Below the pieces are notes generated by a model. That model ran no database searches. It saw only the letters and a list, made by a program, of their open reading frames with translations, and had not been told where the DNA came from. DNA of 41,662 nucleotides, taken from positions 1-41,662 of the forward strand of contig JAURXY010000014.1 of assembly GCA_030654225.1 (NCBI GenBank), written 5' to 3'. This document shows, piece after piece, positions 280 through 41,662 of the stretch. Source of the stretch: a bacterium (GTDB taxonomy: Bacteria > Patescibacteriota > Minisyncoccia > Moranbacterales > UBA2206). A program made the position numbers and the translations under genes. Numbering within the stretch: the stretch's first letter is position 1; the number at the start of each line of letters is the position of its first letter.

Positions 280-1311
280 ATGAAAAAAGATAATAAAAAA
301 CTTATTATTCATAATTCAACTGTAGAATTTTTAATTTTTACTTCTCAAGCAGGAGAAGAAGGAATTGAAGTAAGAGTAGAAAGCGAAAATATCTGGCTGA
401 CACAAAAACTTATTGCTAAGCTTTTTGCAGTTAAAATTCCAACGATAAACGAACATTTAAAAAATATTTTTGAAACCGATGAGTTAGAGGAAAAATCAGT
501 TATTAGGAATTTCCTAATAACTGCCAATGATGGTAAGGATTACCGAGCAAAACATTATAATTTAGAAGCGATTATTGCTCTTGGTTATAGAATAAATTCC
601 GAAAGAGCAACTAATTTCCGGAAATGGGCTACGCAGGTCTTGAAAGACTTTGCTATTCGTGGCTATGTGCTGGATAATGTCAGACTTAAAAACGGAGCAT
701 ATTTGAGTAAGCAATATTTCAAAGATTTAATTCTTGAAATTCGCGATATTCGGGAAAGCGAGAGAAATTTTTATCAGCAAATTACTGACATTTATGCCAG
801 TGCTATGGATTATGATATAAATTCCTCAACAACCAAAGATTTTTTTGCTACCGTCCAAAACAAACTTCATTTTGCCACGCATGGCCATACTGCCGCAGAA
901 TTAATAGTCAATCGCGCAGATCATAAAAAAGATCATATGGGGCTTACGGCTTGGAAGAAAGCTCCAGATGGAAAAATTTTAAGATCAGATGTTGTTATTG
1001 CTAAAAATTATTTGGAAAAAAGAGAAATAAAATTTTTAAACAGAATTGTGACAATGTACTTGGACTACGCGGAGCATCAGGCAGAAAAAGGCGTTCCTAT
1101 GACAACGAAAGACTGGTCGGAAAAATTGAACACTTTTTTGAAATATAACAATGAAAAAATCTTGGAAAATTCTGGAAAAATTACAGCGGAAATAGCCAAG
1201 ACTTTTGCTGAAAGCGAATTTGAAAAATATCGTCCTATTCAGGATAGGCTTTTTGAATCTGATTTTGATCGAGAAGTAAAAAAGCTTTTAGAAATAAAAA
1301 AGAAAAAATAA
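280..1311 (+). CDS. RhuM family protein, copy 1
   Basis: A 343-residue protein of the RhuM family, named after a gene of Salmonella pathogenicity island 3; the biochemical role is unknown. Visible family signatures are NIWLTQKLIAKLF (about residues 37-49), YNLEAIIALGYRINS (about 93-107), FRKWATQVLKDF, FFATVQNKLHFATHGHTAAE (about 188-207) and a C-terminal ESDFDREVKKLLE. The N-terminal third resembles the helix-turn-helix of phage antirepressors, so DNA binding is plausible. The length is normal for the family. The ATG is 13 bp after a palindromic operator and has no Shine-Dalgarno. A perfect palindrome at 497-523 lies inside the gene at codons 73-81, a patch that varies among the copies here. 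Two further complete copies (3139, 15690) and one fragment (15426) are in the window. Confidence 0.9.
   Translation: MKKDNKKLIIHNSTVEFLIFTSQAGEEGIEVRVESENIWLTQKLIAKLFAVKIPTINEHLKNIFETDELEEKSVIRNFLITANDGKDYRAKHYNLEAIIALGYRINSERATNFRKWATQVLKDFAIRGYVLDNVRLKNGAYLSKQYFKDLILEIRDIRESERNFYQQITDIYASAMDYDINSSTTKDFFATVQNKLHFATHGHTAAELIVNRADHKKDHMGLTAWKKAPDGKILRSDVVIAKNYLEKREIKFLNRIVTMYLDYAEHQAEKGVPMTTKDWSEKLNTFLKYNNEKILENSGKITAEIAKTFAESEFEKYRPIQDRLFESDFDREVKKLLEIKKKK
497..523. repeat. in-gene palindrome of rhuM copy 1
   Basis: A perfect inverted repeat with 13 bp arms (CAGTTATTAGGAA and its complement) around one central base, T510, the third base of codon 77. Because of the symmetry both strands encode almost the same peptide (VIR-FLIT). 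It lies at the same aligned codon as palindromes of different sequence in the other rhuM genes. Confidence 0.9.
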
Positions 1312-1322
1312 TTTTAAATTTA

Positions 1323-1351
1323 TTGATTGAATTCATTTTATTTGGTAATAT
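1323..1351 (+). promoter_or_regulatory. promoter of membrane protein gene
   Basis: TTGATT (1323-1328), 17 bp spacer, and an extended -10 TGGTAATAT ending at 1351. It lies 27 bp before the ATG at 1379 and gives this gene pair its own start separate from rhuM. Confidence 0.5.
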
Positions 1352-1378
1352 AGTGATAGAGGTAATAATCTCAAATCC

Positions 1379-2482
1379 ATGGATCGAATTAAATCAATAC
1401 TTAAAACTTTGTCATACTGGTTAGCCTTTGTTGTCGCTATGCTTCTCGGTTTTGGGGCAATATATAGACTAACAGAAAAAGGCGGTCTTGGTTCAGTCAC
1501 TGGCTGGGTATTCGCGGGCATAACTTTATTGCTACTGATCTTTCTTCTCAAACCGATCGGCCGATTTTTATTGAATTTCAAAAATAGAGATTGGAAAAAT
1601 TATTTCATACACATATTACTAATACTGAAAAAAATGGGTCTGTGGGTGGTTCATGCTTTAGTCGTCTGCACCTTGCCTTTTTTGTTATATTTTGTCCTGA
1701 AGTATTTTAATTTGAGTGTGCTTGTCGCTACTAGAATTACAATCGTTTTAGTGTTCTATTTTTTAGGCGGATATTTTTTAAGGAAACATGGTTGGTCTAA
1801 GGCGTTGGGAATCATTTTATTTCTAACAGCTATTGTCCTAAATCTTACCTTTGTAAATCCTAAATATGTTACAAACGAGTTTAAAACGACGATAGTTTTT
1901 TCACTATTTCCATTGTTAGCGAGTATTTTTTTGATTTTTTGGCAAGGCAAATTCTTGAGAGTATTGGGGGCATTAGTAATTATTTTTATTGTTCCAAGCA
2001 CTTTTTATATGGCAGTTTCATCTTATTCTTCCTCGACCTTAATTACCGGCCAAGACAGGACGATAATATTAGCCAGCGTCGAACCGCTAGTTGATGACAT
2101 GTTTCAAGCTTGGGATGATAAAGATTACCAAGAATTTTCCAAAGGTTTTAGCGATGAATTGAAAGGAAATTTCAGTCAGGATAAATTTTTATTTAGTCGG
2201 AATGAATTGGGTAAATTAATTTCAACAGATGAATTGCGCAAAGTAGCCCCCAAAAGCGATTCTCCTTTAGTCGCCGTTGAGACAAGATCTATTGTCAAAT
2301 TTACCAAAGTTATGTATGAGGGAGCATTTGAAAAATACCCAGATGCTATACATGGAATTATAGTTGATTTCAAAAAATCTTATAAAGATAATACATACTC
2401 GATAGTAGGGTTTACTCTTAGCTCCTTTGAGGGTGCTAATACCGATTCTAAAGCATTATTGAAAGCATTGGATTATAAATAA
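1379..2482 (+). CDS. multi-pass membrane protein with extracytoplasmic C-terminal domain
   Basis: A 367-residue protein of unknown function. About seven hydrophobic segments occupy residues 12-225, for example around 13-31, 39-58, 87-109, 112-132, 138-156, 167-183 and 189-211. A soluble C-terminal domain of about 140 residues follows, rich in charged residues and roughly like the small DUF3887/NTF2-like folds found behind membrane anchors (weak resemblance). The segment GGYFLRKHGWSKALGI and the following FPLLASIFLIF are shared with the next gene, so the pair arose by tandem duplication. The two genes are 20 bp apart and probably co-transcribed from the promoter at 1323-1351. I do not recognise a named family. 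Confidence 0.7.
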   Translation: MDRIKSILKTLSYWLAFVVAMLLGFGAIYRLTEKGGLGSVTGWVFAGITLLLLIFLLKPIGRFLLNFKNRDWKNYFIHILLILKKMGLWVVHALVVCTLPFLLYFVLKYFNLSVLVATRITIVLVFYFLGGYFLRKHGWSKALGIILFLTAIVLNLTFVNPKYVTNEFKTTIVFSLFPLLASIFLIFWQGKFLRVLGALVIIFIVPSTFYMAVSSYSSSTLITGQDRTIILASVEPLVDDMFQAWDDKDYQEFSKGFSDELKGNFSQDKFLFSRNELGKLISTDELRKVAPKSDSPLVAVETRSIVKFTKVMYEGAFEKYPDAIHGIIVDFKKSYKDNTYSIVGFTLSSFEGANTDSKALLKALDYK

Positions 2483-2502
2483 TAAACAGCAATATTACGC
2501 AT

Positions 2503-2991
2503 ATGTTATCAATCAAAGAATTATTAAAGAAAATAGGCCGTTGCGCAGTTTTTATTTTAATTACTTTCGTCCTAGCCATTTCTTTTGTTTTTATTTTAAA
2601 TCATTTTAAATTAAATGAGAATGTCAGTGTCGGAATTCCAGGAATTTTTATGTTTTATTTCTGGGGCGGATATTTTTTGAGGAAACAGGGCTGGTCTAAA
2701 GTGTTTGGAGTTGTTCTTTTTTTGATGGCCATCCTCTTAAGTTTTGTTTTTATAAGTTCTCCCTATGATACTGCTAGCGAGTTTAAGGCGACGAGAGTTT
2801 TTCTGCTATTCCCCTTGTTAGCGAGTATTTTCTTGATCTTGCGGAAAGGAAAAATTTCAAGATTAATGGGGATAGTATTAATTATTTTTACTATTCTAAG
2901 TGCTTTCTTGGGTTCAGTTTTTTGTTCAAGTTGTCGGACAGAAGCACCGGATTCCACAACTTCACCAACTGCAACATACGATGTTCCTTAA
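2503..2991 (+). CDS. short membrane paralogue of the preceding gene
   Basis: A 162-residue hydrophobic protein related to the middle of the upstream gene. GGYFLRKQGWSKVFGV and FLLFPLLASIFLIL match its central membrane segments. It has about four to five membrane spans and ends in a short polar tail (CSSCRTEAPDSTTSPTATYD). It lacks both the first two membrane spans and the soluble C-terminal domain of its neighbour, so it is either a reduced paralogue or a decaying copy. The ATG is 20 bp after the upstream stop, without a clear ribosome binding site. A rho-independent terminator follows at 3041. Function unknown. Confidence 0.65.
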   Translation: MLSIKELLKKIGRCAVFILITFVLAISFVFILNHFKLNENVSVGIPGIFMFYFWGGYFLRKQGWSKVFGVVLFLMAILLSFVFISSPYDTASEFKATRVFLLFPLLASIFLILRKGKISRLMGIVLIIFTILSAFLGSVFCSSCRTEAPDSTTSPTATYDVP

Positions 2992-3040
2992 GGTTTGATA
3001 TTTCTATTAAAATTTTTTTCGAACGCATACCGCCAAGAAT

Positions 3041-3068
3041 AGACCTGCTTTTTAGCGGGTCTTATTTT
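3041..3068 (+). terminator. rho-independent terminator
   Basis: Stem AGACCTGC / GCGGGTCT around a TTTTTA loop, followed by TATTTTG. It separates the membrane gene pair from the rhuM promoter 15 bp further on. Confidence 0.7.
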
Positions 3069-3082
3069 GTCAAAAAAAATCA

Positions 3083-3125
3083 TTGACAGTTTCGCAGGAT
3101 GTGGTAGAATAATGATATAATATCA
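3083..3125 (+). promoter_or_regulatory. second rhuM promoter with the same operator
   Basis: TTGACA (3083-3088), 16 bp spacer, extended -10 TGGTAGAAT ending at 3110, then TGATATAATATCA at 3113-3125. It is nearly identical to 224-266 over the whole promoter, including the spacer, so the promoter moved or is maintained together with the gene. Confidence 0.75.
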
Positions 3126-3138
3126 CTAGGATAAAAAT

Positions 3139-4167
3139 ATGAAAAAACAAATAATTCCCAATAATAGTTTTACTGAATTTTTGCTTTACACTACGCCAAA
3201 TGGTAATGTGAAAGTAGAGATATTTTTACGCAACGAAAATATCTGGCTTACGCAAAAAAGAATAGCGGAACTTTTTGATGTTGGTATCCCCGCCGTCAAT
3301 AAGCATTTAGCAAATATCTTTGAAAGTGGGGAACTAGCTGAAAATTCAGTTATTTCCATTTTGGAAATAACTGCCAAAGACGGAAAAAATTATAAAACAA
3401 AGTTTTATAATCTCGATGCTATTATTTCTGTCGGTTATCGCGTGAACAGTACACGGGCGACGCAATTTAGAATTTGGGCCACAGAAAGACTGAAAGAATA
3501 CATCATTAAGGGTTTTACAATGGATGATGAACGACTCAAGACTCCCAATTATACTTTTGGTCAAGATTATTTCGAAGAACAATTGGCTCGTATAGCGGAT
3601 ATCCGTAGTAGTGAGCGTAGGTTTTACCAAAAAATTACCGATATCTATGCGCAATGCAGTGTGGATTATGATAAAAATAGGGCTGAAGCTCAACATTTTT
3701 TTGCTACTGTGCAAAATAAATTGCATTTTGCCATTTCAGGGTATACAGCCGCAGAAATTATTAGCAGTCGTGTAGATAGTAGAAAAACAAATGTAGGCCT
3801 CACTAATTGGAAAAACAGTCCACAAGGAGCTATACGCAAATCAGATATGGTGATTGCTAAAAATTATTTAAACAAAGAAGAGCTCGCAGGTCTAAATAGT
3901 ATAGTTGAGCAATATCTAATTTTTGCCGAGTCGCAAGCTAAGCGTAAAAAAGCCATGTTTATGTTGGACTGGAATAAAAAGCTAAGTGAATTTTTAAAAC
4001 TTAATGATCGTGATATTCTGGGAGATTTAGGTAGGGTGAGTCATGCAGTAGCGGAAGAATTAGCACTCGACGAATATGAAAAATATCGCGTGGAGCAAGA
4101 TAAAAATTACATTTCCGATTTCGATAGGGAAGTAAAAAAGCTTTTAGAAGTAAAAAAGAAAAAATAA
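3139..4167 (+). CDS. RhuM family protein, copy 2
   Basis: A 342-residue RhuM family protein, full length. Signatures are NIWLTQKRIAELFDVG (about 34-49), YNLDAIISVGYRVNSTRA (about 91-108), FRIWATERLKEYI, FFATVQNKLHFAISGYTAAE and the C-terminal SDFDREVKKLLEVKKKK. The last nine codons are almost the same as in copy 1. It heads an apparent operon: the bro gene starts 14 bp after its stop, and bro overlaps the RNA methyltransferase. It carries the in-gene palindrome at 3347-3373. Family function is unknown; an antirepressor-like DNA-binding role is an inference from the N-terminal helix-turn-helix-like region. Confidence 0.9.
   Translation: MKKQIIPNNSFTEFLLYTTPNGNVKVEIFLRNENIWLTQKRIAELFDVGIPAVNKHLANIFESGELAENSVISILEITAKDGKNYKTKFYNLDAIISVGYRVNSTRATQFRIWATERLKEYIIKGFTMDDERLKTPNYTFGQDYFEEQLARIADIRSSERRFYQKITDIYAQCSVDYDKNRAEAQHFFATVQNKLHFAISGYTAAEIISSRVDSRKTNVGLTNWKNSPQGAIRKSDMVIAKNYLNKEELAGLNSIVEQYLIFAESQAKRKKAMFMLDWNKKLSEFLKLNDRDILGDLGRVSHAVAEELALDEYEKYRVEQDKNYISDFDREVKKLLEVKKKK
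3347..3373. repeat. in-gene palindrome of rhuM copy 2
   Basis: Inverted repeat with 12 bp perfect arms (CAGTTATTTCCA and its complement) and a 3 nt centre. It spans 27 nt like copy 1 and is centred on T3360, the third base of codon 74, which aligns with codon 77 of copy 1. The inner arm sequence differs from copy 1, yet pairing is complete. Confidence 0.9.
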
Positions 4168-4181
4168 TTTAAAAAAACAAT

Positions 4182-5006
4182 ATGAAAAAAGAAAAAGGTT
4201 TGGCTATTTTTGAGGGGAAAAATATTAGGAGGGTTTGGGATGAGAAAAAAGAACTTTGGTATTTTTCGGTAATTGATATAATAGCTATACTAACAGAACA
4301 AATAGAATATAATAAAGCAAAAACATATTGGACAACATTAAAAAATCGCTTGAAAAATGAGGGTAGTGAAGTGGTCACAAAATGTGACCAGTTGAAAATG
4401 TTGGCTCAGGATGACAAAATGAGAGAAACTGATGCGGCTGATGTGGAAACATTATTGCGTCTTATTCAGTCAGTTCCAAGCAAAAAAGCTGAACCAATAA
4501 AATTATGGTTGGCGAGAGTTGGCTATGAAAGAATAGAAGAAATATCTGATCCGGAGAAAGCCCTTAATCGCAGTCGAGACTATTGGCAGAAAATGGGACG
4601 AAGCAAAGAATGGATTCAGCAAAGAATGATGGGTCAAGAAATTAGGAATAAGCTTACTGATTATTGGAAAAATAATGAAGTTGAAAAGCAAGATGAATAT
4701 GCGATTCTTACTAATATTATTCACAAAGAATGGAGTGATTTTTCCGTTAGAGAACACAAAAATTTGAAAAAATTGAAGACTGAAAATCTGCGTGATTATA
4801 TGTCAGACGCTGAATTAGTTTTTACGGCTTTGGCAGAACTTTCTACTCGTCAAATCGCCGAGACACTAGAAAGCAAGGGATTGGAAGAAAATAAAATCCC
4901 AGCGAAAAAAGGCGGGCGAGTGGCTAAGAATGCTCGATTAGAACTGGAGAAAAAAACTGGCAAAAGAGTGGTAGTAGAAAATAATTTTAAGAAATTAAAA
5001 ATATGA
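4182..5006 (+). CDS. Bro-N domain antirepressor-like protein, copy 1
   Basis: A 274-residue BRO-family protein. The N-terminus (KGLAIFEGKNIRRVWDEK, then WYFSVIDIIAILTE) is the Bro-N fold of phage and baculovirus antirepressor-like proteins. QLKMLAQDDKMRETDAAD and the segment AEPIKLWLARVGYERIEEI are typical of the bacterial group. The C-terminus, GGRVAKNARLELEKKTGKRV, is also family-typical. It is predicted to bind DNA; targets are unknown. It follows rhuM copy 2 by 14 bp and its stop overlaps the next start (ATGA), implying translational coupling to a SpoU methyltransferase. The paralogue at 38380 is about half identical by eye. A palindrome at 4372-4390 covers codons 64-70. Confidence 0.85.
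   Translation: MKKEKGLAIFEGKNIRRVWDEKKELWYFSVIDIIAILTEQIEYNKAKTYWTTLKNRLKNEGSEVVTKCDQLKMLAQDDKMRETDAADVETLLRLIQSVPSKKAEPIKLWLARVGYERIEEISDPEKALNRSRDYWQKMGRSKEWIQQRMMGQEIRNKLTDYWKNNEVEKQDEYAILTNIIHKEWSDFSVREHKNLKKLKTENLRDYMSDAELVFTALAELSTRQIAETLESKGLEENKIPAKKGGRVAKNARLELEKKTGKRVVVENNFKKLKI
4372..4390. repeat. in-gene palindrome of bro copy 1
   Basis: TGGTCACA and its complement around a central AAA: 8 bp perfect arms, centred on the middle base of codon 67 (Lys), three codons before the conserved QLKM. The other bro gene has a different palindrome centred on the equivalent codon. Confidence 0.85.
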
Positions 5007-15166: not shown

Positions 15167-15349
15167 ATGGCGGATAAAAAATCAACGGACAAAAACATTC
15201 GTAAGTTAACAAAAATTGGCAAAAAATCTTTCGGGATAACTTTGCCAATTGAAGAAGTACGCTCTCTTGGTTGGAAAGAACGGCAAAAACTTTCAGTCAA
15301 AAGAATAAAAGGGGGGTTTGAAGTGAGGGATTGGAGGAATATGAAATAA
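15167..15349 (+). CDS. AbrB/SpoVT-like small DNA-binding protein
   Basis: A 60-residue protein. RKLTKIGKKSFGITLPIEEV followed by RSLGWKERQKLSVKRIKGG has the swapped-hairpin AbrB/MazE form (K-ITLP-E-V-LGWKE-d-L-V). Such proteins are transition-state regulators or antitoxins; no toxin partner is adjacent, so the role is open. Its promoter carries an inverted-repeat element shared with 6877-6901, a candidate binding site for this or another regulator. A 99 bp segment of the gene (15212-15310) is duplicated in decayed form at 16709-16807. A perfect DnaA-box sequence TTATCCACA lies at 15352-15360, just after the stop. Confidence 0.75.
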   Translation: MADKKSTDKNIRKLTKIGKKSFGITLPIEEVRSLGWKERQKLSVKRIKGGFEVRDWRNMK

Positions 15350-15369
15350 AGTTATCCACAGCTCAAGAG

Positions 15370-15401
15370 TTGCCAGAAATCGAAAGAGTGATATAATATC
15401 A
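15370..15401 (+). promoter_or_regulatory. promoter/operator of rhuM fragment
   Basis: TTGCCA (15370-15375), 16 bp spacer, TATAAT (15392-15397), with the 13 bp palindrome TGATATAATATCA at 15389-15401 overlapping the -10. It is the same palindrome as in the two other rhuM promoters. Confidence 0.65.
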
Positions 15402-15425
15402 TTATAAGATTTATAAAATAAAAAT

Positions 15426-15680
15426 ATGACAATAAGAAAGATACCCGATGACCAAATTGCATTTTATCAAACACCGGAAGGGTCAATAAATATTGAGGTG
15501 CTATATTCCGAAGAAAATATTTGGTTGCCACAAAAACGCATGGCAGAATTATTTGATACAACCAAACAAAATATCAGCTTGCACCTGGTTAATATTTTTA
15601 AATCAAAGGAGTTGGATGAAAATTCAGTTGTCAAGGATTTCTTGACAACTGTTTTGGACAGTAAATATTTAAAGAATTAA
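15426..15680 (+). pseudogene. truncated RhuM N-terminal fragment
   Basis: 84 codons matching only the N-terminal quarter of RhuM (NIWLPQKRMAELFDTTKQNI, SLHLVNIFKSKELDENSVVK). The frame ends soon after the in-gene palindrome, at the point where full-length copies continue with ADGK and YNLDAII. A complete rhuM starts 9 bp later, so the fragment is best seen as the 5' remnant of an older copy interrupted or replaced by the next one. It keeps the rhuM operator and a promoter, so the peptide may be expressed. Confidence 0.75.
15625..15651. repeat. in-gene palindrome of rhuM fragment
   Basis: Arms CAGTTGTCAAGGA and its complement around T15638, all 13 positions pairing (one as G-T). The 27 nt span and the centre on the third base of codon 71 match copies 1 and 2. 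Compared with copy 1, three inner base pairs have changed on both sides. Confidence 0.9.
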
Positions 15681-15689
15681 AATAAAAAA

Positions 15690-16649
15690 ATGGAGAAAGA
15701 ATCAAATAATAAAATAATTCTCTATAAAACAGAGGACGGAAAAACGGAAATCGAGGTCAATCTCGAAGGGGAAACGGTGTGGCTTTCTCAAAAACAAATG
15801 TCGGAGCTTTTTGATTGTACCCCGGAAAACATATTGTTGCATCTTAAAAATGTTTTTGAAAGCGGTGAATTAGATGAAAAAGCAACTGCTAAGGAATCCT
15901 TAGTAGTTCAAAAAGAGGGAAATAGAGCCGTAAATAGAACTATAAGATTTTATAATCTGGATGCTATAATTTCTGTTGGCTATCGCATAAATTCTTTGCG
16001 AGGCACGCAATTTCGCATTTGGGCGACACAAAAACTCAAAGAATTTATGGTTAAGGGCTTTGTGATGGACGATGAACGATTAGCAGAAGGCGGAGTGAAA
16101 AAAAGATTTTTTGAAGAGTGGTTGGAAAGAGTCAGAAAAATCAGAGCTTCAGAAAAAAATCTTTATGAAAAAGTGAAAGATATTTTTGCTACCAGCGTGG
16201 ATTATGATCCAAGAACTGATTTCACTAAAGAATTTTATGCAACTATGCAAAACAAATTTCACTACGCCATCACAGGAAGCACAGCGGCGGAATTGGTGGT
16301 TAATCGTATTAGCGGAAAAAAAGAAAATTTGGGAATGACAAATTGGAAAGGTGCGATGCCGACCAGAAAAGAAGCAGTGGTGGCGAAAAATTATATGCTG
16401 GAGACAGAACTGCGCCAACTCTATCTTTTGGTGGAACAATTTTTGTCCTTTGCTGAATTTCAAATTGAAAGGAAGAATATTATGCATATGAAAGATTGGG
16501 TGGCCTATTTGCATGAGATGCTGAAAGCCAACAAGCTGGAAGTGCTTTTGGGCAGAGGAAAAATTTCGCATGATAAGATGGAGATGGTTGTGAAAGAGGA
16601 ATTGGAGAGATTTATCAAGCAAAAGATTTTTGAAAAGACAGGAATATGA
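15690..16649 (+). CDS. RhuM family protein, copy 3, frameshifted C-terminus
   Basis: A 319-residue RhuM protein, with family signatures TVWLSQKQMSELFDCTPENI, YNLDAIISVGYRINSLRGTQ, FYATMQNKFHYAITGSTAAE and WKGAMPTRKEAVVAKNYM. It lacks the usual last 20 or so residues. After about 16630 the family-like ending (YEIKWEEEFGKNELERLEVK) continues in another frame up to the TAA at 16708, so a small indel probably truncated the protein. The variable patch here reads ATAKESLVVQ, like enterobacterial RhuM, not SVxxFLxTA, yet it still carries a palindrome (15884-15908). No clear promoter of its own; it is 9 bp after the fragment. Family function unknown. Confidence 0.85.
   Translation: MEKESNNKIILYKTEDGKTEIEVNLEGETVWLSQKQMSELFDCTPENILLHLKNVFESGELDEKATAKESLVVQKEGNRAVNRTIRFYNLDAIISVGYRINSLRGTQFRIWATQKLKEFMVKGFVMDDERLAEGGVKKRFFEEWLERVRKIRASEKNLYEKVKDIFATSVDYDPRTDFTKEFYATMQNKFHYAITGSTAAELVVNRISGKKENLGMTNWKGAMPTRKEAVVAKNYMLETELRQLYLLVEQFLSFAEFQIERKNIMHMKDWVAYLHEMLKANKLEVLLGRGKISHDKMEMVVKEELERFIKQKIFEKTGI
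15884..15908. repeat. in-gene palindrome of rhuM copy 3
   Basis: AACTGCTAAGGA pairs with TCCTTAGTAGTT around A15896 (12 bp, one as G-T), centred on the third base of codon 69, the codon that aligns with codon 77 of copy 1. The sequence is unrelated to the other three palindromes apart from the position and odd symmetry. Confidence 0.85.
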
Positions 16650-16873
16650 GATTAAATGGGAAGAGGAGTTTGGGAAGAATGAGCTTGAGAGACTTGAGGT
16701 TAAGAAATAAAATTGGCAAAAAATCTTTCGGGATAACTTTGCCGATTGAAGATGTGCGCAATCTGGGATGGAAAGAGCGTCAAAAACTTTCAGTCAAAAG
16801 AATAAAAAGGATAAAATCTCAAATTTTGCAATTTTTTGCCTATTTCTCTATATCTTGGAAATATTGGGAATAG
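16646..16873 (+). pseudogene. decayed duplicate of AbrB-like gene
   Basis: Positions 16709-16807 are a close copy of 15212-15310 (KIGKKSFGITLPIEDVRNLG, then WKERQKLSVKRIK). The open frame begins in the out-of-frame tail of rhuM copy 3 and ends in unrelated sequence (RIKSQILQFFAYFSISWKYW), so neither end is a real AbrB terminus. The similarity starts at the ancestral rhuM stop codon. This suggests that the rhuM copies were inserted into, or recombined with, an AbrB-like gene. Confidence 0.7.
16824..16849. repeat. 26 bp direct repeat, left copy
   Basis: Identical to 18511-18536 (begins TTTTGCAATTTTTTGCC). The right copy is in the promoter region of dnaG. The two copies bracket the ATPase gene 16989-18437 and its operators. 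Confidence 0.75.
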
Positions 16874-34670: not shown

Positions 34671-35435
34671 ATGCCGAATTTTTTTCAAGTTATAATTTTG
34701 GGAATAGTAGAGGGGATAACGGAATTCTTGCCGATTTCGTCGACGGCGCATTTGATTTTGACGGCGGATATTTTGAAACTCACGCAGACAGAATTTTTGA
34801 AAAGTTTTGAAATCATCATTCAGTTCGGCGCGATTTTGGCGGTGGTAGTTCTATATTGGAAAACACTTTGGAAAATGGAAGTGATCAAAAAACTTATTGT
34901 GGCTTTTATCCCAACGGGAATTTTAGGGCTGGTTTTTTACGGAATAATCAAAACTTATCTTTTGGGAAGTGTGAGCGTGGTTCTCTGGACAATGTTTTTG
35001 GGTGGAATATTTCTGATTATTTTTGAAAAATGGCACACAGAAAAAGAAAGTGCGCTAGAAGACATTTCCAATATTTCCTATAAACAATGTCTCTATATCG
35101 GACTTTTTCAATCAATTGCGATGATCCCTGGGGTTTCTCGCAGTGCGGCCACAATCCTTGGGGGATTGGCGCTTGGGCTCAAAAGAAAAACAATCGTGGA
35201 ATTTTCTTTTCTCTTGGCCGTGCCAACAATGCTCGCTGCCACGGGGCTAGACATGCTCAAAAATTATAAAAGTTTTTCACTCTCTGAGAGTCATCTTCTG
35301 GCTGTTGGTTTTATAGTCTCTTTTGTCATGGCAATTTTGGGAATAAAATTTCTTCTAACTTATATTCAAAAAAGAACATTTACGGCCTTTGGATTTTACC
35401 GCATCTTGGTGGCGGTTTTGTTTTGGGTGAAATAA
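34671..35435 (+). CDS. uppP: undecaprenyl-diphosphate phosphatase
   Basis: A 254-residue integral membrane protein of the UppP/BacA family, which dephosphorylates undecaprenyl pyrophosphate to recycle the lipid carrier for peptidoglycan. Both signature motifs are present: EGITEFLPISSTAHL (residues 14-28) and PGVSRSAATILGGLALG (about 152-168), with Glu14/Glu18, Ser24/His27 and Arg156 as expected catalytic residues. About eight membrane spans. A TATAAT at 34631-34636 probably belongs to its promoter. Terminator at 35475. Its loss or excess affects bacitracin sensitivity in other bacteria. Confidence 0.95.
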   Translation: MPNFFQVIILGIVEGITEFLPISSTAHLILTADILKLTQTEFLKSFEIIIQFGAILAVVVLYWKTLWKMEVIKKLIVAFIPTGILGLVFYGIIKTYLLGSVSVVLWTMFLGGIFLIIFEKWHTEKESALEDISNISYKQCLYIGLFQSIAMIPGVSRSAATILGGLALGLKRKTIVEFSFLLAVPTMLAATGLDMLKNYKSFSLSESHLLAVGFIVSFVMAILGIKFLLTYIQKRTFTAFGFYRILVAVLFWVK

Positions 35436-35520: not shown

Positions 35521-35653
35521 CTTTACAGAGATTTTTTCTGGATTTTGTGGTAGAATATAAAGGTGGAATTATATAAAAAAAATCCGAAATAAGAATCCTA
35601 AAAGAGGGATAATTTTTGCCTTAGATTTGGAGTGCTAAAAAGAAATTATTAAA

Positions 35654-35788
35654 ATGAAAAAGAAAAAAATTATAATTCAGGGAGTTGAAGTTACTATCAT
35701 TCCAAATTTTAACTAGGGCGAATTTGCCATAATTAAAAGCAATGTAGGTTTGAATGAGTATGGCATATTGGCGTCAGGGAATTATTGA
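35654..35788 (+). pseudogene. possible KilA-N-type remnant
   Basis: MKKKKIIIQGVEVTIIPNFN, then TAG, then a continuing frame GEFAIIKSNVGLNEYGILAS before TGA. The start resembles KilA-N-type antirepressor proteins (K-I-I-V-Q-G-x-E-I). The promoter-like GGATTTTGTGGTAGAATA upstream resembles the rhuM promoter. The rest of the gene is missing. Low confidence because the similarity covers only a few residues. The remainder of 35436-35855 holds only the terminator, the DnaA box and the next promoter. Confidence 0.3.
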
Positions 35789-35813
35789 CAGAATAGTAAT
35801 AATGTAATAAAGT
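35785..35813 (+). promoter_or_regulatory. promoter of DUF4143 ATPase
   Basis: TTGACA (35785-35790), 17 bp spacer, TAAAGT (35808-35813), 42 bp before the ATG. Confidence 0.45.
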
Positions 35814-35855
35814 CAATACAAATAAGCGTAAATATGTAATATTTTTAAGATAAAT

Positions 35856-37043
35856 ATGAAAAAAAGGGCTATATTTCAAGAAATAATCAAATATCTAGAG
35901 AAAAAAGAGGCTTTGGTCATCACTGGTATGCGCCAAGTGGGTAAAACAACTCTGATGCGCCAAGTGTATGATTCGTTGGAAAGCCAAGCTAAGCTGTGGT
36001 TTGATTTTGAAAATCCATTGGAGGTGAAAAACTTTGAAGATATCGATTATGACAATATCTACAAAAGATTATTAAATCTAACTAATAATCAATCGGAAAG
36101 AATTTTTGTTTTTATTGACGAAATTCAGATCTTTCCGGAAATTACCAAAATAATAAAATATTTGATTGATCATTATCAGGTTAAATTTATCGTTACAGGA
36201 TCATCAAATTTTTATCTGAACAATCTTTTTCCAGAATCTCTCAGTGGTCGGAAATTTATTTTTCAGCTCAATCCTTTGAGTTTTCAAGAGTGTTTGTATT
36301 TTCAAGATAAAATTTCCGCCAAAGACGCCATTCTTTTGCCGATAGGCAAGGCTATTGAAAAAAGCGATATTTTTTTCCACAAAAAATACGAAACGGATTA
36401 TGATAATTTTTTGGAATATGGTGGCTTTCCGGCAGTCGTGTTGGAAAAAGAAAAAGAAGCGAAAAACAAAATTCTAAAGAATATTTTTGTTTCTTTTTTT
36501 GAAAAAGATTTGAAAATTCTTTCTGATTATAAAGATATTCAAGAACTGCGAGATTTGATTCTGCTTCTGGTGCCAAGGGTCGGTTCAATGCTAGATGTGG
36601 CCAAAATTTCCAGTGAATTGGGAATTAGCCGAGTGAAAACCTATCAATATTTGGAATTTCTGCAAGGCACTTTCATCATCAAGCTTTTGCCTAAATATTC
36701 CAAATCTATTGATCGCGCAGTGGCAGGGGGAAAAAAAGTATATTTTAGCGACACGGGAATGCTCAAAAGTATTGGCAACGTGAATGATTCTCAGCTTTTT
36801 GAAAATGCGCTAGTGAATCAAATTGGACAATATGGAAAAATTAGTTTTTTCAATCAAAGAAATACGGCGGAAATAGATGTGATTTTGGAAAACAAATTTT
36901 CTTTTGAAGTAAAACTTCGAGGAGGAGAAAAAGATTATGCTAAGCTGGAAAAATTATCAGCTAAGCTTAAAATTAAAGAGTATAAAATTATTTCTAAAGA
37001 ATTTATTGATAAAAAAGGATTCATTTCGCCAGTGGTTTTTTAG
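35856..37043 (+). CDS. AAA_14 / DUF4143 ATP-binding protein
   Basis: A 395-residue P-loop ATPase. Walker A GMRQVGKTTL (about residues 24-33), Walker B RIFVFIDEIQIF (about 82-93), sensor VTGSSNFYL, the conserved LSGRKFIFQLNPLSFQE and, in the C-terminal DUF4143 part, ISSELGISRVKTYQYLEFLQ and VYFSDTGMLKSIG. It ends with the PD-(D/E)XK-like AEIDVILENKFSFEVKLRGG. Members are abundant in archaea and Patescibacteria and of unknown role. The last codons (VVF-stop) belong to the first copy of a repeat that recurs at 38104 and 39219, showing that the gene once lay directly upstream of the surface-protein promoter. Confidence 0.88.
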   Translation: MKKRAIFQEIIKYLEKKEALVITGMRQVGKTTLMRQVYDSLESQAKLWFDFENPLEVKNFEDIDYDNIYKRLLNLTNNQSERIFVFIDEIQIFPEITKIIKYLIDHYQVKFIVTGSSNFYLNNLFPESLSGRKFIFQLNPLSFQECLYFQDKISAKDAILLPIGKAIEKSDIFFHKKYETDYDNFLEYGGFPAVVLEKEKEAKNKILKNIFVSFFEKDLKILSDYKDIQELRDLILLLVPRVGSMLDVAKISSELGISRVKTYQYLEFLQGTFIIKLLPKYSKSIDRAVAGGKKVYFSDTGMLKSIGNVNDSQLFENALVNQIGQYGKISFFNQRNTAEIDVILENKFSFEVKLRGGEKDYAKLEKLSAKLKIKEYKIISKEFIDKKGFISPVVF

Positions 37044-37096
37044 GGAAAAATGAGGTAGAATAGAAATAGGAAATTTTCAATTAATAAAAAATAAAA
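37032..37096. repeat. intergenic repeat, copy A
   Basis: Begins GTGGTTTTTTAGGG and continues through TGAGGTAGAATAGAAATAGG to TTTTCAATTAATAAAA. Closely matches 38105-38160 and 39220-39275. Here it overlaps the end of the ATPase gene and then diverges. Confidence 0.85.
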
Positions 37097-37136
37097 AGCA
37101 AAGAATTAAAGAATAGAAGATGATAAAAATGAGAAA

Positions 37137-37157
37137 CCTGCCTACCGGATAGGCAGG
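37137..37157. repeat. CCTGCC-type palindrome variant
   Basis: CCTGCCTA / TAGGCAGG with a CCGGA centre. Related to 31686-31705. Typical intergenic repeat of this lineage. Confidence 0.65.
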
Positions 37158-37170
37158 CAAAAAAAATAAA

Positions 37171-37240
37171 TTGAAAGCATATTTAACATCTGTGTTTATT
37201 CGTAATGCACTACGAATAAAGAGCAATTAATTCGTAGTGA
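37171..37240 (+). promoter_or_regulatory. dinD promoter with palindromic operator
   Basis: TTGAAA (37171-37176) and a weak -10 near 37194-37200. The 24 bp palindrome 37196-37219 has arms TTATTCGTA / TACGAATAA and one mismatched pair at the centre. A half site ATTCGTAGTG follows at 37230-37239. The centre GTAATGCAnTAC is the same as in the operator at 16927-16948, so related regulators may be involved. It may also be a relative of the TACGAA-type repeats. Confidence 0.6.
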
Positions 37241-37262
37241 AAATCAAAAAAATAATAAAACT

Positions 37263-38075
37263 ATGCCAAAAGAAATAATCATAAATTCTCCCCATAAAAA
37301 TTTTGAAAGTATCAAAAAAATTGATAAGAATAGCGTTGAATATTGGGAAGCTCGTGAGTTGATGCCACTCTTGGGTTATGATAGATGGGAGAATTTTGAA
37401 AATGTTATCAAAAAAGCTAAGGGAGCTTGTTTTGGGTCTGGGCAAAAAGAAGCTGACCATTTTCGTGATATCAGGAAAATGGTTGATATTGGTTCAAATA
37501 CTGTAAGAATGGTAAAAAATTATGAATTAGATCGTTTCGCTTGTTATCTTATTGCGCAAAATGGTGATTCAAAAAAACAAGAAATTGCGATGGCGCAAAC
37601 ATATTTCGCTATTCAAACGAGAAAACAGGAGATATTCGAACAGCTTTCCGATGTGGACAAGCGACTGATGATTCGCGGAGAAGTTTCAAGCCATAACAAA
37701 AAACTTTTCAGCACGGCCAAAAAAGCGGGCGTTTCAAATTTTGGATCTTTCAACGACGCTGGATACAAAGGACTTTATGGAATGCCTTTGGCTGAAATTG
37801 AAAACAAAAAGAAAATAAAAAAAGGCGAGCTTTTGGACAGAGCAGGATCGACGGAGTTGGCAGCTAATCTTTTCCGTATTACTCAGACAGATGAAAAAAT
37901 AAAAAAAGATAAAATCAATGGTGAATATAGTGCCACGCAAACTCATTTTATGATAGGAGGAAAAGTGCGCCAAACCATAAAAGACATTGGCGGAATTTTG
38001 CCGGAAAAATTACCAGTGGAAAAACATATTAGGGAATTGAAAAAAGAAAAGAAGAAGCTAAAAAATCTTTCCTAA
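37263..38075 (+). CDS. dinD: DinD-like (DNA damage-inducible protein D) protein
   Basis: A 270-residue protein. The Bro-N-like N-terminus (VEYWEARELMPLLGYDRWEN) and the DinD features ADHFRDIRKMVDIGSNTVRM, DRFACYLIAQNGDSKKQEIA and QTYFAIQTRKQEI, then the C-terminal SHNKKLFSTAKKAGVSNFGS and GYKGLYG are all visible. In Escherichia coli, dinD is SOS-induced and its product inhibits RecA-mediated strand exchange, so it may act on RecA. Length is usual. The operator differs from LexA boxes. An imperfect inverted repeat lies inside at 37424-37454. It appears to have been inserted between the ATPase and the surface-protein gene. Confidence 0.9.
   Translation: MPKEIIINSPHKNFESIKKIDKNSVEYWEARELMPLLGYDRWENFENVIKKAKGACFGSGQKEADHFRDIRKMVDIGSNTVRMVKNYELDRFACYLIAQNGDSKKQEIAMAQTYFAIQTRKQEIFEQLSDVDKRLMIRGEVSSHNKKLFSTAKKAGVSNFGSFNDAGYKGLYGMPLAEIENKKKIKKGELLDRAGSTELAANLFRITQTDEKIKKDKINGEYSATQTHFMIGGKVRQTIKDIGGILPEKLPVEKHIRELKKEKKKLKNLS
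37424..37454. repeat. in-gene imperfect inverted repeat of dinD
   Basis: AGCTT-g-TTTT (37424-37433) pairs with AAAA-g-AAGCT (37445-37454) with one internal mismatch and an 11 nt centre. It lies directly before the conserved ADHF, in the variable patch of the family, similar in place to the palindromes of rhuM and bro. Less perfect than those. Confidence 0.5.
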
Positions 38076-38089
38076 AGCGAAGCTTTAGG
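38071..38089. terminator. hairpin at dinD stop
   Basis: CCTAAAGC-GAA-GCTTTAGG, an 8 bp perfect stem covering the dinD stop codon. No T-run follows, so it may be a 3' end stabiliser. Confidence 0.4.
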
Positions 38090-38103
38090 AGGAGCTGATT
38101 GGC

Positions 38104-38256
38104 GGTGGTTTTTTAGGGGGAAATGAGGTAGAATAGAAATAGGAAATTTTCAATTAATGAAAAATAAAATAGAAAAAATTGATAGCCTAAATGAGATTAA
38201 AAATAAATAAAAATTCACTATTATTTCTTTTCCCAATAATAACTTTGTTATTGGTT
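38104..38256. repeat. intergenic repeat, copy B
   Basis: Matches copy C (39219-39371) from the promoter-like TGAGGTAGAATAGAAATAGG through the first 22 or so codons of a signal peptide. Confidence 0.9.
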
Positions 38257-38316
38257 TTGATGGCGGAGAAAGCGGAGGCGACGAGTTGTATTTGGAATGA
38301 GAGATTAGTAGCTTAG
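38191..38316 (+). pseudogene. remnant of surface-protein 5' end
   Basis: 41 codons: the signal peptide MRLKINKNSLLFLFPIITLL is the same as in the large gene at 39308, followed by a different continuation (LVLMAEKAEATSCIWNERLV) and a stop. The W and C of SCIW match the start of the mature surface protein (YTCTW), so this is a truncated paralogue or leftover of the original 5' end cut off by the bro insertion. Confidence 0.75.
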
Positions 38317-38379
38317 GCGATGGAGATTTTGTTTTGAGGAAGGGAAAAAAGATGATAAAATTAAGAAACAAAAAACAAT

Positions 38380-39201
38380 ATGGAAAATAATAATCAGATT
38401 GCCATTTTCAAAGGCAAACAAATTAGAAAAAATATTTATCAAAAGGAATGGTGGTTTTCGATTTTGGATATAATAAAGGTTTTAACAGATAGTCCACAGC
38501 CAAAGACCTATTGGGCTAAAATGAAAGAGCGAGACAAGGAAATGGCTGAACCGTTCCCATTTTGGGAACAGTTGAAAATGATAGCTGAAGACGGCAAAAT
38601 GCGTGAAACAGATTGCGCTAATACCGAAGGACTTTTTCGTATAATTCAGTCCATCCCTTCTCCTAAAGCCGAGCCACTTAAAAGATGGCTGGCGCGTGTT
38701 GGTTATGAGCGAATTCAAGAAATTGAAGACCCGGAATTAGCAACTAAAAGAACCAGAATATTATATAAACTCAAAGGTTATCCGCAAAGTTGGATTGAAA
38801 AAAGAATGCGGGGCATTGCTATTCGCGAAGAATTGACGGACGAATGGCAAAAAAGAGGAGCGCAAGAACAAAGAGATTATGAAATATTAACTGCAGAAAT
38901 ATCCAAGGCTACTTTTGGAATTACACCAAAGCAATACAAAAAACTCAAAGGACTTGAACGAGAAAATTTACGAGATCATATGGACGACTTTGAATTAATT
39001 TTTACAATGCTGGGCGAAAGATCAACAACAGAAATTCATCGCAATGAAAATTCAAAAGGTATGAATAAATTGCAGGAAGATGCCCAGATTGGCGGAAGAA
39101 TAGCCGGTAATGCCAAAAAAGAATTGGAAAAAAAGTTAGGAAGGTCAATTTCTACTAAAAAGAATTTTTTATCGTTGAAAAATAGAAAGAGATTGAGATA
39201 A
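38380..39201 (+). CDS. Bro-N domain antirepressor-like protein, copy 2
   Basis: A 273-residue paralogue of the protein at 4182. Bro-N start (QIAIFKGKQIRKNIYQKE, then WWFSILDIIKVLTD), QLKMIAEDGKMRETDCANTE, SIPSPKAEPLKRWLARVGYE and the C-terminal AGNAKKELEKKLGRSIST. It is predicted to bind DNA. Unlike copy 1 it stands alone, with no coupled methyltransferase. It sits between the truncated surface-gene remnant and the intact surface gene, with copies B and C of the intergenic repeat on either side. A palindrome at 38551-38571 is in the same codon position as that of copy 1. Confidence 0.88.
   Translation: MENNNQIAIFKGKQIRKNIYQKEWWFSILDIIKVLTDSPQPKTYWAKMKERDKEMAEPFPFWEQLKMIAEDGKMRETDCANTEGLFRIIQSIPSPKAEPLKRWLARVGYERIQEIEDPELATKRTRILYKLKGYPQSWIEKRMRGIAIREELTDEWQKRGAQEQRDYEILTAEISKATFGITPKQYKKLKGLERENLRDHMDDFELIFTMLGERSTTEIHRNENSKGMNKLQEDAQIGGRIAGNAKKELEKKLGRSISTKKNFLSLKNRKRLR
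38551..38571. repeat. in-gene palindrome of bro copy 2
   Basis: GTTCCCA and its complement around a central TTT (38553-38569), centred on the middle base of codon 61 (Phe), again three codons before QLKM. Compared with bro copy 1, at least two base pairs have changed on both sides (G-C to T-A and A-T to C-G). Confidence 0.8.
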
Positions 39202-39218
39202 GTTAGGAGGATTTCTTT

Positions 39219-39371
39219 GGTGGTTTTTTAGGGGGAAATGAGGTAGAATAGAAATAGGAAATTTTCAATTAATAAAAAATAAAATAGAAAAAAAATTGAT
39301 AGCCTAAATGAGATTAAAAATAAATAAAAATTCACTATTATTTCTTTTCCCAATAATAACTTTGTTATTTG
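39219..39371. repeat. intergenic repeat, copy C, promoter of surface protein
   Basis: Third copy. TAGAAT at 39244-39249 is the likely -10 (weak -35 TGGTTT, 17 bp spacer) for the gene at 39308. Confidence 0.85.
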
Positions 39372-41662
39372 TTTTGACGTCCAATAAAGCTTATGCTTAT
39401 ACTTGCACTTGGACTGGCACGAGTTCTACTGCTTGGGCGACAGCGGGGAATTGGTCGGGTTGCAATTCTACAATCCCACAAACTACTGATGATGTAGTCA
39501 TCAATACTACTGGAAATCAACCAATCCTTGATCTCACCGGAGGGAAAACTATTAATTCTCTTTCGATTGGATCAAGTGCGGTTTCGACTCTCACTCTTTC
39601 TAATGGTTTAGTGGATATTGATGTCAACAAATTAACTATCACCAACAATCTCACTATCGGAGGATCCGGCACAATCACGAGCACTGCCAACACCACCGCC
39701 CAAACTCATTCGGTGAATATGGCAGTGGGAGGGAATGTGGATATTGCAACGAATGGGAAGATTGATGTTTCTTCGAAAGGTTATTCTGGTGGAACATCAG
39801 GTCATACAACTGGATATGGAACAGGTGGTGGAGCTGGTGGAGCTACCAATACTTATGGAGCTGGCGGAGGATATGGTGGAGCTGGTGGCGGAAGTAGTAT
39901 GCTGCCAGCTGGTGGTGGACCAGAAAATGGTCAAGCTAATATCCATCAGCCGACTGATTTAGGTTCAGGCGGAGGTTATGGAAATACAAATGGTGGTGCT
40001 GGAGGCGGAGCTATTAAATTAACTATTTCTGGCACATTTACTAATAGTGGATCAATTTTAGCTACAGGAGCAAATAGTATTTTGCATGGTTCTAATTATG
40101 CTTCCGGTGCTGGTTCCGGCGGTTCTATTTGGATTTCGGCTGGAACAATCGCTGGAGCAGGGACGATTAGCGCTAATGGAGGAAACGGTCTGGTGCCATT
40201 TGGTTATTCTGGTTCTGGATCGGGAGGGAGAATTGCAATTACTTATACTGCTGATAACAATTCTAATTTCACTAAAACAGCTTTTGGCGGAACAATTGGC
40301 AGTGTTGGTGCTTCTGGTTCAATTTATATTGATGATATAGATGACGCCTATTCTCCTGATTTAACTTTTAATAATAATGGAAATAACTCTCCCACAAGAA
40401 CTATTAGTGCTACTTATGGAGTGACCACTTTTCGAAATCTGATTTTCTCCGAAGGTACAGCCGGATTTATAAATAGCGGAACAAACCTAGTAATACATAG
40501 CACGGGGACACTGACATTTGGAGGAAATTTTTCCAATACCGGCACTATCACGGCAAATAGCCTTGCTACTCTAAATTTCAATGGAGGTACTTCCACTAAC
40601 TCTGGAAATTTCTCAGCTACTAGTTTGCAAAATCTCAACATAACTGGAGCGACAGTTGCGATGGATACTTTGTATGTTGACAATGAAGGAGTTTACACTT
40701 GTACTGGCACCAGCCGTTATACATTGCCAGCTACTTATTCTATGAATATATCCAGTTCTGGAACATTGAATCATACAGCTAATCCAGCTGGTTCAACTCC
40801 TGTATATTGTCTTAATCTTTCTATGACTAATCTGACGATTGATGGGACAAGTGCTGTTAATGTTAACGCTAGAGGTTATTTAGGCGGAACAGTTGCAAAT
40901 GCGACTGGATACGGAACAGGAGGAGGAATATTTGATGAAACTTCCGGTGGCGGAGCGGGGCATGGGGGAGTGGGAGGGAGAGGCACTCGGATTGGTTCGA
41001 TTGGAGGAAGTGAATATCAACAAACTTCTCTAGATCAGCCATTTGATCTAGGATCAGGCGGAGGATACAGTGGAAGGTCTGGATACAATGGAGGAGCTGG
41101 AGGCGGATCGATCAAGCTAAATATTTCCGGAACTCTTAATCATGGTGGATCAATATTATCAAATGGTGGAAATGGAATTGGCTATAGTTCAACTAATTTT
41201 TCTGGTGGTGGTTCGGGTGGATCAATTTGGATTCAAGTAGGATTAATTGCAGGATCCGGAACAATTACAGCGAATGGAGGCGTCGGTGGAATTTATTCAG
41301 GTGGATATTATGGCGGTGGTGGAGCCGGCGGTCGCATTGCCATCCATGGCACAGGTGCTGGAGTCTTAACTCCAACTGCAATAGGCGGAATTGGATGGAA
41401 TAATCTTTATGGTGGAACTGGCACAGTATATTACAATGTTACTGGCACATACACTTTTTCAGTGATGGATTTCACCGTAGCTCGTGATTTCACCACCTTA
41501 GCCTTCAACAAAACCACCACTGCAGATTCCATCAGCACCCCCACTCTCACAGTGGATGCTCGTGCCGGAAATGCCACCGATACCAATGATAGTAGCTGGA
41601 CTGCTTGGCAAACAAACATCTCAAGCAATGTCAGCGACAACCTCAATCCTTTTGACAACAAG
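39308..41662 (+). CDS. large Gly-rich secreted surface protein, partial
   Basis: An open frame of 785 codons that runs past the right edge without a stop. A signal peptide (MRLKINKNSLLFLFPIITLL ... NKAYA, cleavage before YTCTW) shows export. The mature part begins with WTGTSSTAWATAGNWSGCNS, as in autotransporter-like or 'GxxxNW' adhesin passenger starts. Two long units of the same plan follow, from about residues 166 and 531, each with TGYGTGGG, Gly-rich runs, DLGSGGGY, GGAGGG-IKL-ISGT, GGSIWI-x-AG-GTI-ANGG and GGRIAI. Between them are beta-rich Thr/Ser/Asn segments (NSGTNLVIHSTGTLTF). It is probably a beta-helical adhesin or S-layer-associated protein used for contact with host cells or matrix. 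Its long Gly/Thr coding region has higher GC than its neighbours. Confidence 0.85.
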   Translation, partial: MRLKINKNSLLFLFPIITLLFVLTSNKAYAYTCTWTGTSSTAWATAGNWSGCNSTIPQTTDDVVINTTGNQPILDLTGGKTINSLSIGSSAVSTLTLSNGLVDIDVNKLTITNNLTIGGSGTITSTANTTAQTHSVNMAVGGNVDIATNGKIDVSSKGYSGGTSGHTTGYGTGGGAGGATNTYGAGGGYGGAGGGSSMLPAGGGPENGQANIHQPTDLGSGGGYGNTNGGAGGGAIKLTISGTFTNSGSILATGANSILHGSNYASGAGSGGSIWISAGTIAGAGTISANGGNGLVPFGYSGSGSGGRIAITYTADNNSNFTKTAFGGTIGSVGASGSIYIDDIDDAYSPDLTFNNNGNNSPTRTISATYGVTTFRNLIFSEGTAGFINSGTNLVIHSTGTLTFGGNFSNTGTITANSLATLNFNGGTSTNSGNFSATSLQNLNITGATVAMDTLYVDNEGVYTCTGTSRYTLPATYSMNISSSGTLNHTANPAGSTPVYCLNLSMTNLTIDGTSAVNVNARGYLGGTVANATGYGTGGGIFDETSGGGAGHGGVGGRGTRIGSIGGSEYQQTSLDQPFDLGSGGGYSGRSGYNGGAGGGSIKLNISGTLNHGGSILSNGGNGIGYSSTNFSGGGSGGSIWIQVGLIAGSGTITANGGVGGIYSGGYYGGGGAGGRIAIHGTGAGVLTPTAIGGIGWNNLYGGTGTVYYNVTGTYTFSVMDFTVARDFTTLAFNKTTTADSISTPTLTVDARAGNATDTNDSSWTAWQTNISSNVSDNLNPFDNK

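Follow-up and report, generated by a model that had tools for sequence, protein, structure and literature searches.

Accessory genes between a common promoter block and a surface-protein leader in a patescibacterial genome: remnants of repeated gene replacement?

Results

Genes and elements of the bacA locus

The window, i.e. the whole stretch of 41,662 nucleotides analysed, belongs to a draft genome of 1.0 Mb (G000), in which it is contig C7, and was compared with six genomes of the same genus (G001 to G006), which makes a set of seven draft genomes from one genus. The features found from bacA to the contig end are listed in Table 1. Within the ATPase A insert, the gene itself (35856-37043) is of the AAA_14/DUF4143 type (Pfam), and the insert stands behind a probable KilA-N remnant, whose 24-aa match is to the KilA-N protein found downstream of glyS in G005. 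Element R also occurs 5' of another ATPase gene, ATPase C, in G004:C50. As for block X, an Rfam scan of the region for known RNAs gave nothing near the gathering score. Concerning bro, relatives with 72-85% amino acid identity are present in three genomes of the genus and identities reach 84% across phyla; this wide spread between phyla, seen in a search over species genomes, is by itself not informative on the mechanism of entry. The same window also carries, at 280-5006, two further RhuM genes (280-1311 and 3139-4167) and a second bro (4182-5006).

Table 1. Features of the bacA slot, with positions in the window
Feature	Position	Strand	Evidence
bacA, conserved gene anchoring the slot	34671..35435	+	Pfam BacA 1.6e-74; genus orthologues 80-96% aa
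Block X, promoter/5' block common to surface-gene slots genus-wide	35540..35640	+	Matches in 6/7 genus genomes, plus G006 (local BLAST)
Probable KilA-N gene remnant (stop, middle lost)	35654..35775	+	24-aa match E 1.8e-4, similar start
ATPase A insert with own upstream region, ends TTTTTTAGGG	35776..37044	+	Pfam; G004:C9 homology
Copy A of promoter module P	37031..37105	+	Repeat comparison
Type-2 surface-gene leader remnant, split by small palindrome CTGCCTACCGGATAGGCAGG	37103..37188	+	E 1.5e-11 to G005:C12 leader; alignment
Element R, promoter-like, palindrome ATTCGTA..TACGAAT, 5' of dinD	37188..37245	+	Sequence comparison
dinD-type gene, Bro-N domain	37263..38075	+	Pfam Bro-N 4.3e-8; genus relatives
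Hairpin TCTTTCCTAAAGCGAAGCTTTAGGAGGA 5' of P	38066..38093	+	100% match at L007 5846-5873 (C34)
Copy B of P	38104..38181	+	Repeat comparison
Truncated surface gene (leader and first mature codons), MRLKINKNSLLFLFPIITLLLVLMAEKAEATSCIWNERLVA*	38188..38313	+	Leader 72/73 to copy C
Type-2 leader start, joined to bro	38340..38380	+	E 4e-6
bro, Bro-N domain	38380..39201	+	Pfam Bro-N 5.2e-11
Copy C of P, promoter of the surface gene	39219..39300	+	Repeat comparison
Surface-protein gene, signal peptide, runs off the contig	39311..41662	+	Open frame; homologues in C34 and relatives

The promoter module P and its copies

An earlier note on this DNA had described three copies of one intergenic repeat, with dinD between copies A and B and bro between copies B and C. 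This layout is confirmed: the repeats (A 37031-37105, B 38104-38299, C 39219-39416) are genuine, and their within-genome E-values of 1e-25 to 1e-73 dismiss a chance origin. The sequence GTGGTTTTTTAGGG and the promoter sequence GGTAGAAT are found as three direct copies (37031-37105, 38104-38178 and 39219-39293), the identities over the P module being 69/77 for A/B, 70/79 for A/C and 76/79 for B/C. Copies B and C also have a longer common stretch, which includes the signal peptide (38160-38299 and 39277-39416). The note had placed the start of the repeat at GTGGTTTTTTAGGG, but the repeat reaches to the left of GTGGTTTTTT in copy B, in C34-1 (a copy of P at a second locus) and partly in copy C, with the hairpin TCTTTCCTAAAGCGAAGCTTTAGGAGGA in this leftward part; GTGGTTTTTTAGGG is therefore not the left edge.

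The homology of ATPase A to G004:C9 covers exactly the insert given in Table 1 (about 1.27 kb, 85% identical at the DNA level), with unrelated flanks on either side. The claim that the ATPase and the surface gene were ancestral neighbours is thus not supported, since the ATPase is itself an insert with another context in G004:C9. More distant relatives of ATPase A end in (I/V)SPV(I/V)(L/F), and GTGGTTTTTTAG is hence its native 3' end. A derivation of the repeat from the ATPase is not supported either, because this promoter is also found, together with GTGGTTTTTTAGG (or GTGGTTTTTTGGG), at sites that lack ATPase A, and GTGGTTTTTTAGGG heads this promoter also where no ATPase is nearby. In the form P with GTGGTTTTTT(A/G)GG, the module is found without ATPase A in G004:C15, in the spacer between recQ and the acyl-CoA synthetase gene of G003 and G005, and twice in C34; a related copy is present in G004. 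A birth of P from the ATPase 3' end was set aside on the basis of the recQ-acyl-CoA-synthetase spacers and of G004:C15. Given these ATPase-free copies, the 14 nt identical at copy A most plausibly mark the junction at which P was joined to the end of the ATPase gene. In a search of 120 genomes of the order, P with GTGGTTTTTT(A/G)GG was found in this genus only.

Leader remnants of two types

Copy B does hold the dead start of a signal peptide, as previously noted, and can be described as a truncated surface gene. Its leader is identical to that of copy C at 72/73 positions (98.6%), whereas only 24/42 of the next 42 nt (57%) agree. The same 42 nt are identical to the glyS-linked surface gene of G001 at 29/42 positions; a gapped local alignment of the post-leader region of B to copy C was not significant, while the in-register comparison was. 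From this abrupt drop past the leader, copy B is taken as the beginning of another surface-gene allele, and such an uneven identity indicates that B and C do not go back to the duplication of a single target.

Two leader remnants of another type (type 2), overlooked in the earlier note, lie before dinD and before bro. Similar remnants are also present 5' of ATPase C in G004 and of dinD in G006, and in G005:C12 a truncated leader is followed by a different gene. As a side observation, the type-2 leader of G004:C50 (L045 1944-2126) resembles a type 1' leader with an insert of about 97 bp, bounded by CCCTGTTTAATA and TATTTAACAGGG; the ends of this insert resemble those of the GIY-YIG element described below, and the insert would provide a new start codon and N-terminus.

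A second, unlinked locus and its GIY-YIG insert

Contig C34 of the same genome, unlinked to the window, has the order glyS, X, AntA fragment, hairpin and P, ATPase B, P, GIY-YIG, leader, surface gene. Block X is common to both loci and P occurs twice in C34, its second copy being 94-96% identical to B and C of the window over 77-79 columns; ATPase B and the window ATPase are only 26% identical. Since P stands here before other genes, and since B and C diverge after the leader, the local target duplication (up to 190 bp) put forward in the earlier note is not supported.

The GIY-YIG gene (L007 7402-7705) lies between P and the surface gene and is enclosed by inverted CCCTATTAAGTAA, and the corresponding genes of G001:C37 (L119) and G005:C7 (L124), which are its relatives, by CCCTGTTAAATAA and TTAACAGGG. 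These bounds are 13-14 bp inverted repeats (CCCTRTTAARTAA), and both relatives sit inside an AbrB-like ORF. With such repeats, the GIY-YIG gene looks like a minimal mobile element. Inverted repeats around all inserts were also considered and rejected, since the GIY-YIG gene alone has them.

Empty and filled slots across the genus

Several slots of the genus follow the same layout, namely promoter block X, variable accessory gene(s), promoter/signal-peptide leader and surface gene, and X adjoins surface genes at many loci. The bacA slot is empty in G002, where bacA, X and an intact surface gene follow one another, the surface protein being 50% identical to that of the window over 590 columns. 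Directly 3' of bacA, neither X nor a surface gene was found in G004 and G005; the contig of G006 ends there, and bacA is split between contig ends in G001. At alaS, the slot holds dinD in G006 and has no insert in G005 and G002 (alaS-X-surface gene). As for glyS, its slot is occupied by AntA, ATPase B and GIY-YIG in G000, by RhuM in G001, by ATPase C in G004 and by KilA-N in G005; in G003, G002 and G006, neither X nor a surface gene could be recognised immediately 3' of glyS. The glyS, alaS and bacA slots therefore have the same conserved flanks with differing content in relatives, as replacement islands do.

The empty and differently filled slots indicate that the genes entered a pre-existing promoter–surface-gene junction. 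The earlier note had proposed to look for uninterrupted junctions in relatives: one was indeed found in G002, but it joins X, and not an ATPase, to the surface gene. The entry of genes into a once-adjacent promoter–surface-gene junction is consequently upheld (bacA in G002, alaS in G005), without the ATPase as neighbour, and the movement of antirepressor-type genes as single genes is supported.

Located 3' of two slots (L042 2068-5627 and L046 11172-14161), S23/Avd-like, reverse-transcriptase-like and DUF1566-like ORFs, judged from their translations only, recall a diversity-generating retroelement. Among the papers that a literature search listed, none described slots of this kind in Patescibacteria.

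Flanking duplications

Duplications flank 5/12 in-slot genes, the other seven being devoid of them, so that a duplication at each insertion, as once suggested, is not observed. Across the regions compared, with a threshold of E<1e-6, flanking duplications were found for 6/21 accessory vs. 5/145 ordinary genes (Fisher p=0.0006, for genes that are not fully independent and regions chosen for these loci); such genes are thus enriched in them, although not universally. The duplications vary in length from 47 to 241 bp: 47 bp of leader start around dinD in the alaS slot of G006, 116 bp around ATPase C in G004, and, outside any slot, 78 bp (86% identical) around dinD of G006:C31 (L120 5565-6450). 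In the window, an AbrB-like gene is duplicated over 102 bp (90% identical) around RhuM at 15690.

In the case of G006:C31, the duplicated stretch corresponds to the 3' end of a convergent neighbour. Within window positions 15167-16873, RhuM (15690-16649) and a fragment (15426-15680) stand between the AbrB-like ORF and its partial copy; the direct repeat (15212-15313 and 16709-16810) makes this a second antirepressor-type gene of the window inside a duplication of a neighbour. An ordinary gene of G004:C1 (L068 3348-4505) is also flanked by a 162-bp, 86% direct repeat, so that antirepressor-type genes are not the only ones with such duplications.

Exchange of an X-RhuM-leader unit

The X-RhuM-leader unit in the glyS slot of G001 is 97% identical over 1330 bp to a unit at a different locus of G005, the gene itself being near 99%, vs. 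mostly 84-91% for the core blocks of the two genomes. The identity fades within X and within the leader. For this one unit, a higher similarity than that of the core and a change of identity at the flanks were thus found, as in replacement islands. On the sequences compared, this pattern is the clearest sign that X and the leader may serve as homology arms.

Discussion

Origin of the repeats

The reading that we favour, with a probability of roughly 0.55, is that the genus has several accessory-gene slots, this region among them, which single mobile genes enter and where they replace one another in the interval from X to the leader, the repeats being remnants of this traffic. The entrants would include Bro-N, KilA-N, AntA, RhuM, AAA_14/DUF4143 ATPases, S23 and GIY-YIG genes. 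Incoming DNA, probably taken up from relatives, would recombine on the right via homology in the leader/surface gene. On the left, two routes are conceivable: homology in X, which would give a clean replacement and no duplication, or an illegitimate junction formed within the resident surface gene at short stretches of A/T-rich microhomology, after which the resident's promoter and leader would persist as a truncated copy. The clean route is needed by the model because 7/12 in-slot genes have no flanking duplication; the left junctions, where microhomology was read by eye, are consistent with homology-facilitated illegitimate recombination. The three repeats would then be leftovers of several such events with different donors, and the accessory genes probably hitch-hike on selection for new surface-gene variants, which is our default reading. 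Natural competence and retained recombination genes have been reported for Patescibacteria (PMC12455944). A wider version is rather doubtful, namely that X and the leader form a genus-wide pair of docking sites between which any single gene could be swapped among surface loci and species, the resident antirepressor-type genes regulating or switching the downstream surface gene.

An array of at least two tandem surface genes with a common promoter and leader could also have left these repeats, if the gene bodies were deleted, accessory genes inserted into the dead copies with no accompanying duplication, and gene conversion kept P and the leaders alike. The surface-like coding stretch of another allele into which copy B runs on, the remnants of two leader types in the window and the truncated leader of G005:C12 with a different gene next would fit such an array. 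We nevertheless regard it as unlikely, as the regions compared contain no intact tandem pair with common P and leader, and only one surface gene follows X at the orthologous empty sites.

Somewhat less likely still is the successive insertion of dinD and bro as single-gene elements, each of them duplicating up to about 190 bp of the local target, beside an ancestral ATPase-surface gene junction, as the earlier note proposed. It explains the repeat-gene-repeat layout and has parallels in the duplications around dinD at alaS of G006, ATPase C of G004, dinD of G006:C31 and RhuM at 15690 of the window. A transposon target site would give a constant length at one target; what was found is a range of 47-241 bp, no duplication in 7/12 cases or in most relatives of these genes, and B/C similarity that is uneven along its length (98.6%, then 57%). 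The presence of P at an unlinked locus and elsewhere without ATPase, and the ATPase being an insert, also argue against it.

That the inserted elements moved by their own transposition or homing, as the terminal inverted repeats of the GIY-YIG insert in C34, G001:C37 and G005:C7 suggest for one insert, is very improbable: dinD, bro and the ATPases have no such inverted ends, at dinD of G006 there is just a palindrome on each side, and the inserts encode no transposase. Lastly, an assembly artefact of this metagenome-derived genome is hardly credible, for although repeats did break the assembly where C7 and C34 end (both in the same surface-gene sequence), the repeats within the region are short (75-240 bp) and divergent, and the same kind of layout is found in four other genomes.

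Relation to known systems

Homology-facilitated illegitimate recombination occurs during natural transformation in Acinetobacter and pneumococcus; the slots would likewise combine one homologous and one illegitimate end with additive insertion, judging from the junctions. Conserved-leader recombination operates on bacterial surface genes such as Campylobacter fetus sap and the variable surface genes of Mycoplasma. These also have a common promoter and leader with exchangeable downstream parts, whereas the slots, known here from sequence comparison, have foreign accessory genes placed upstream of the leader. With integron gene cassettes, the slots have in common serial single-gene units behind one promoter, but their boundaries vary, no integrase or common attC-like site was seen in the regions read, and no integrase was found beside the slots among the ORFs and Pfam hits examined. 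In larger replacement islands, the gene content at exposed-structure loci is exchanged through conserved flanks (Lopez-Perez et al. 2014, PMC4033161). The slots resemble these replacement flexible genomic islands in the loci concerned, in their differing content between conserved flanks and in the exchange via these flanks; they differ in the size of the unit (one or a few genes), in flanks that consist of no more than a promoter block and a signal-peptide leader, and in the presence of one and the same unit at different loci.

Orphan Bro-N, KilA-N, RhuM, GIY-YIG and DUF4143 genes without known means of movement are numerous in ultra-small Patescibacteria. The locus family described here provides landing sites for some of them, with orthologous empty and filled sites and one X-gene-leader unit common to different loci of two species, and it ties the spread of such orphan genes to recombination at surface-protein genes.
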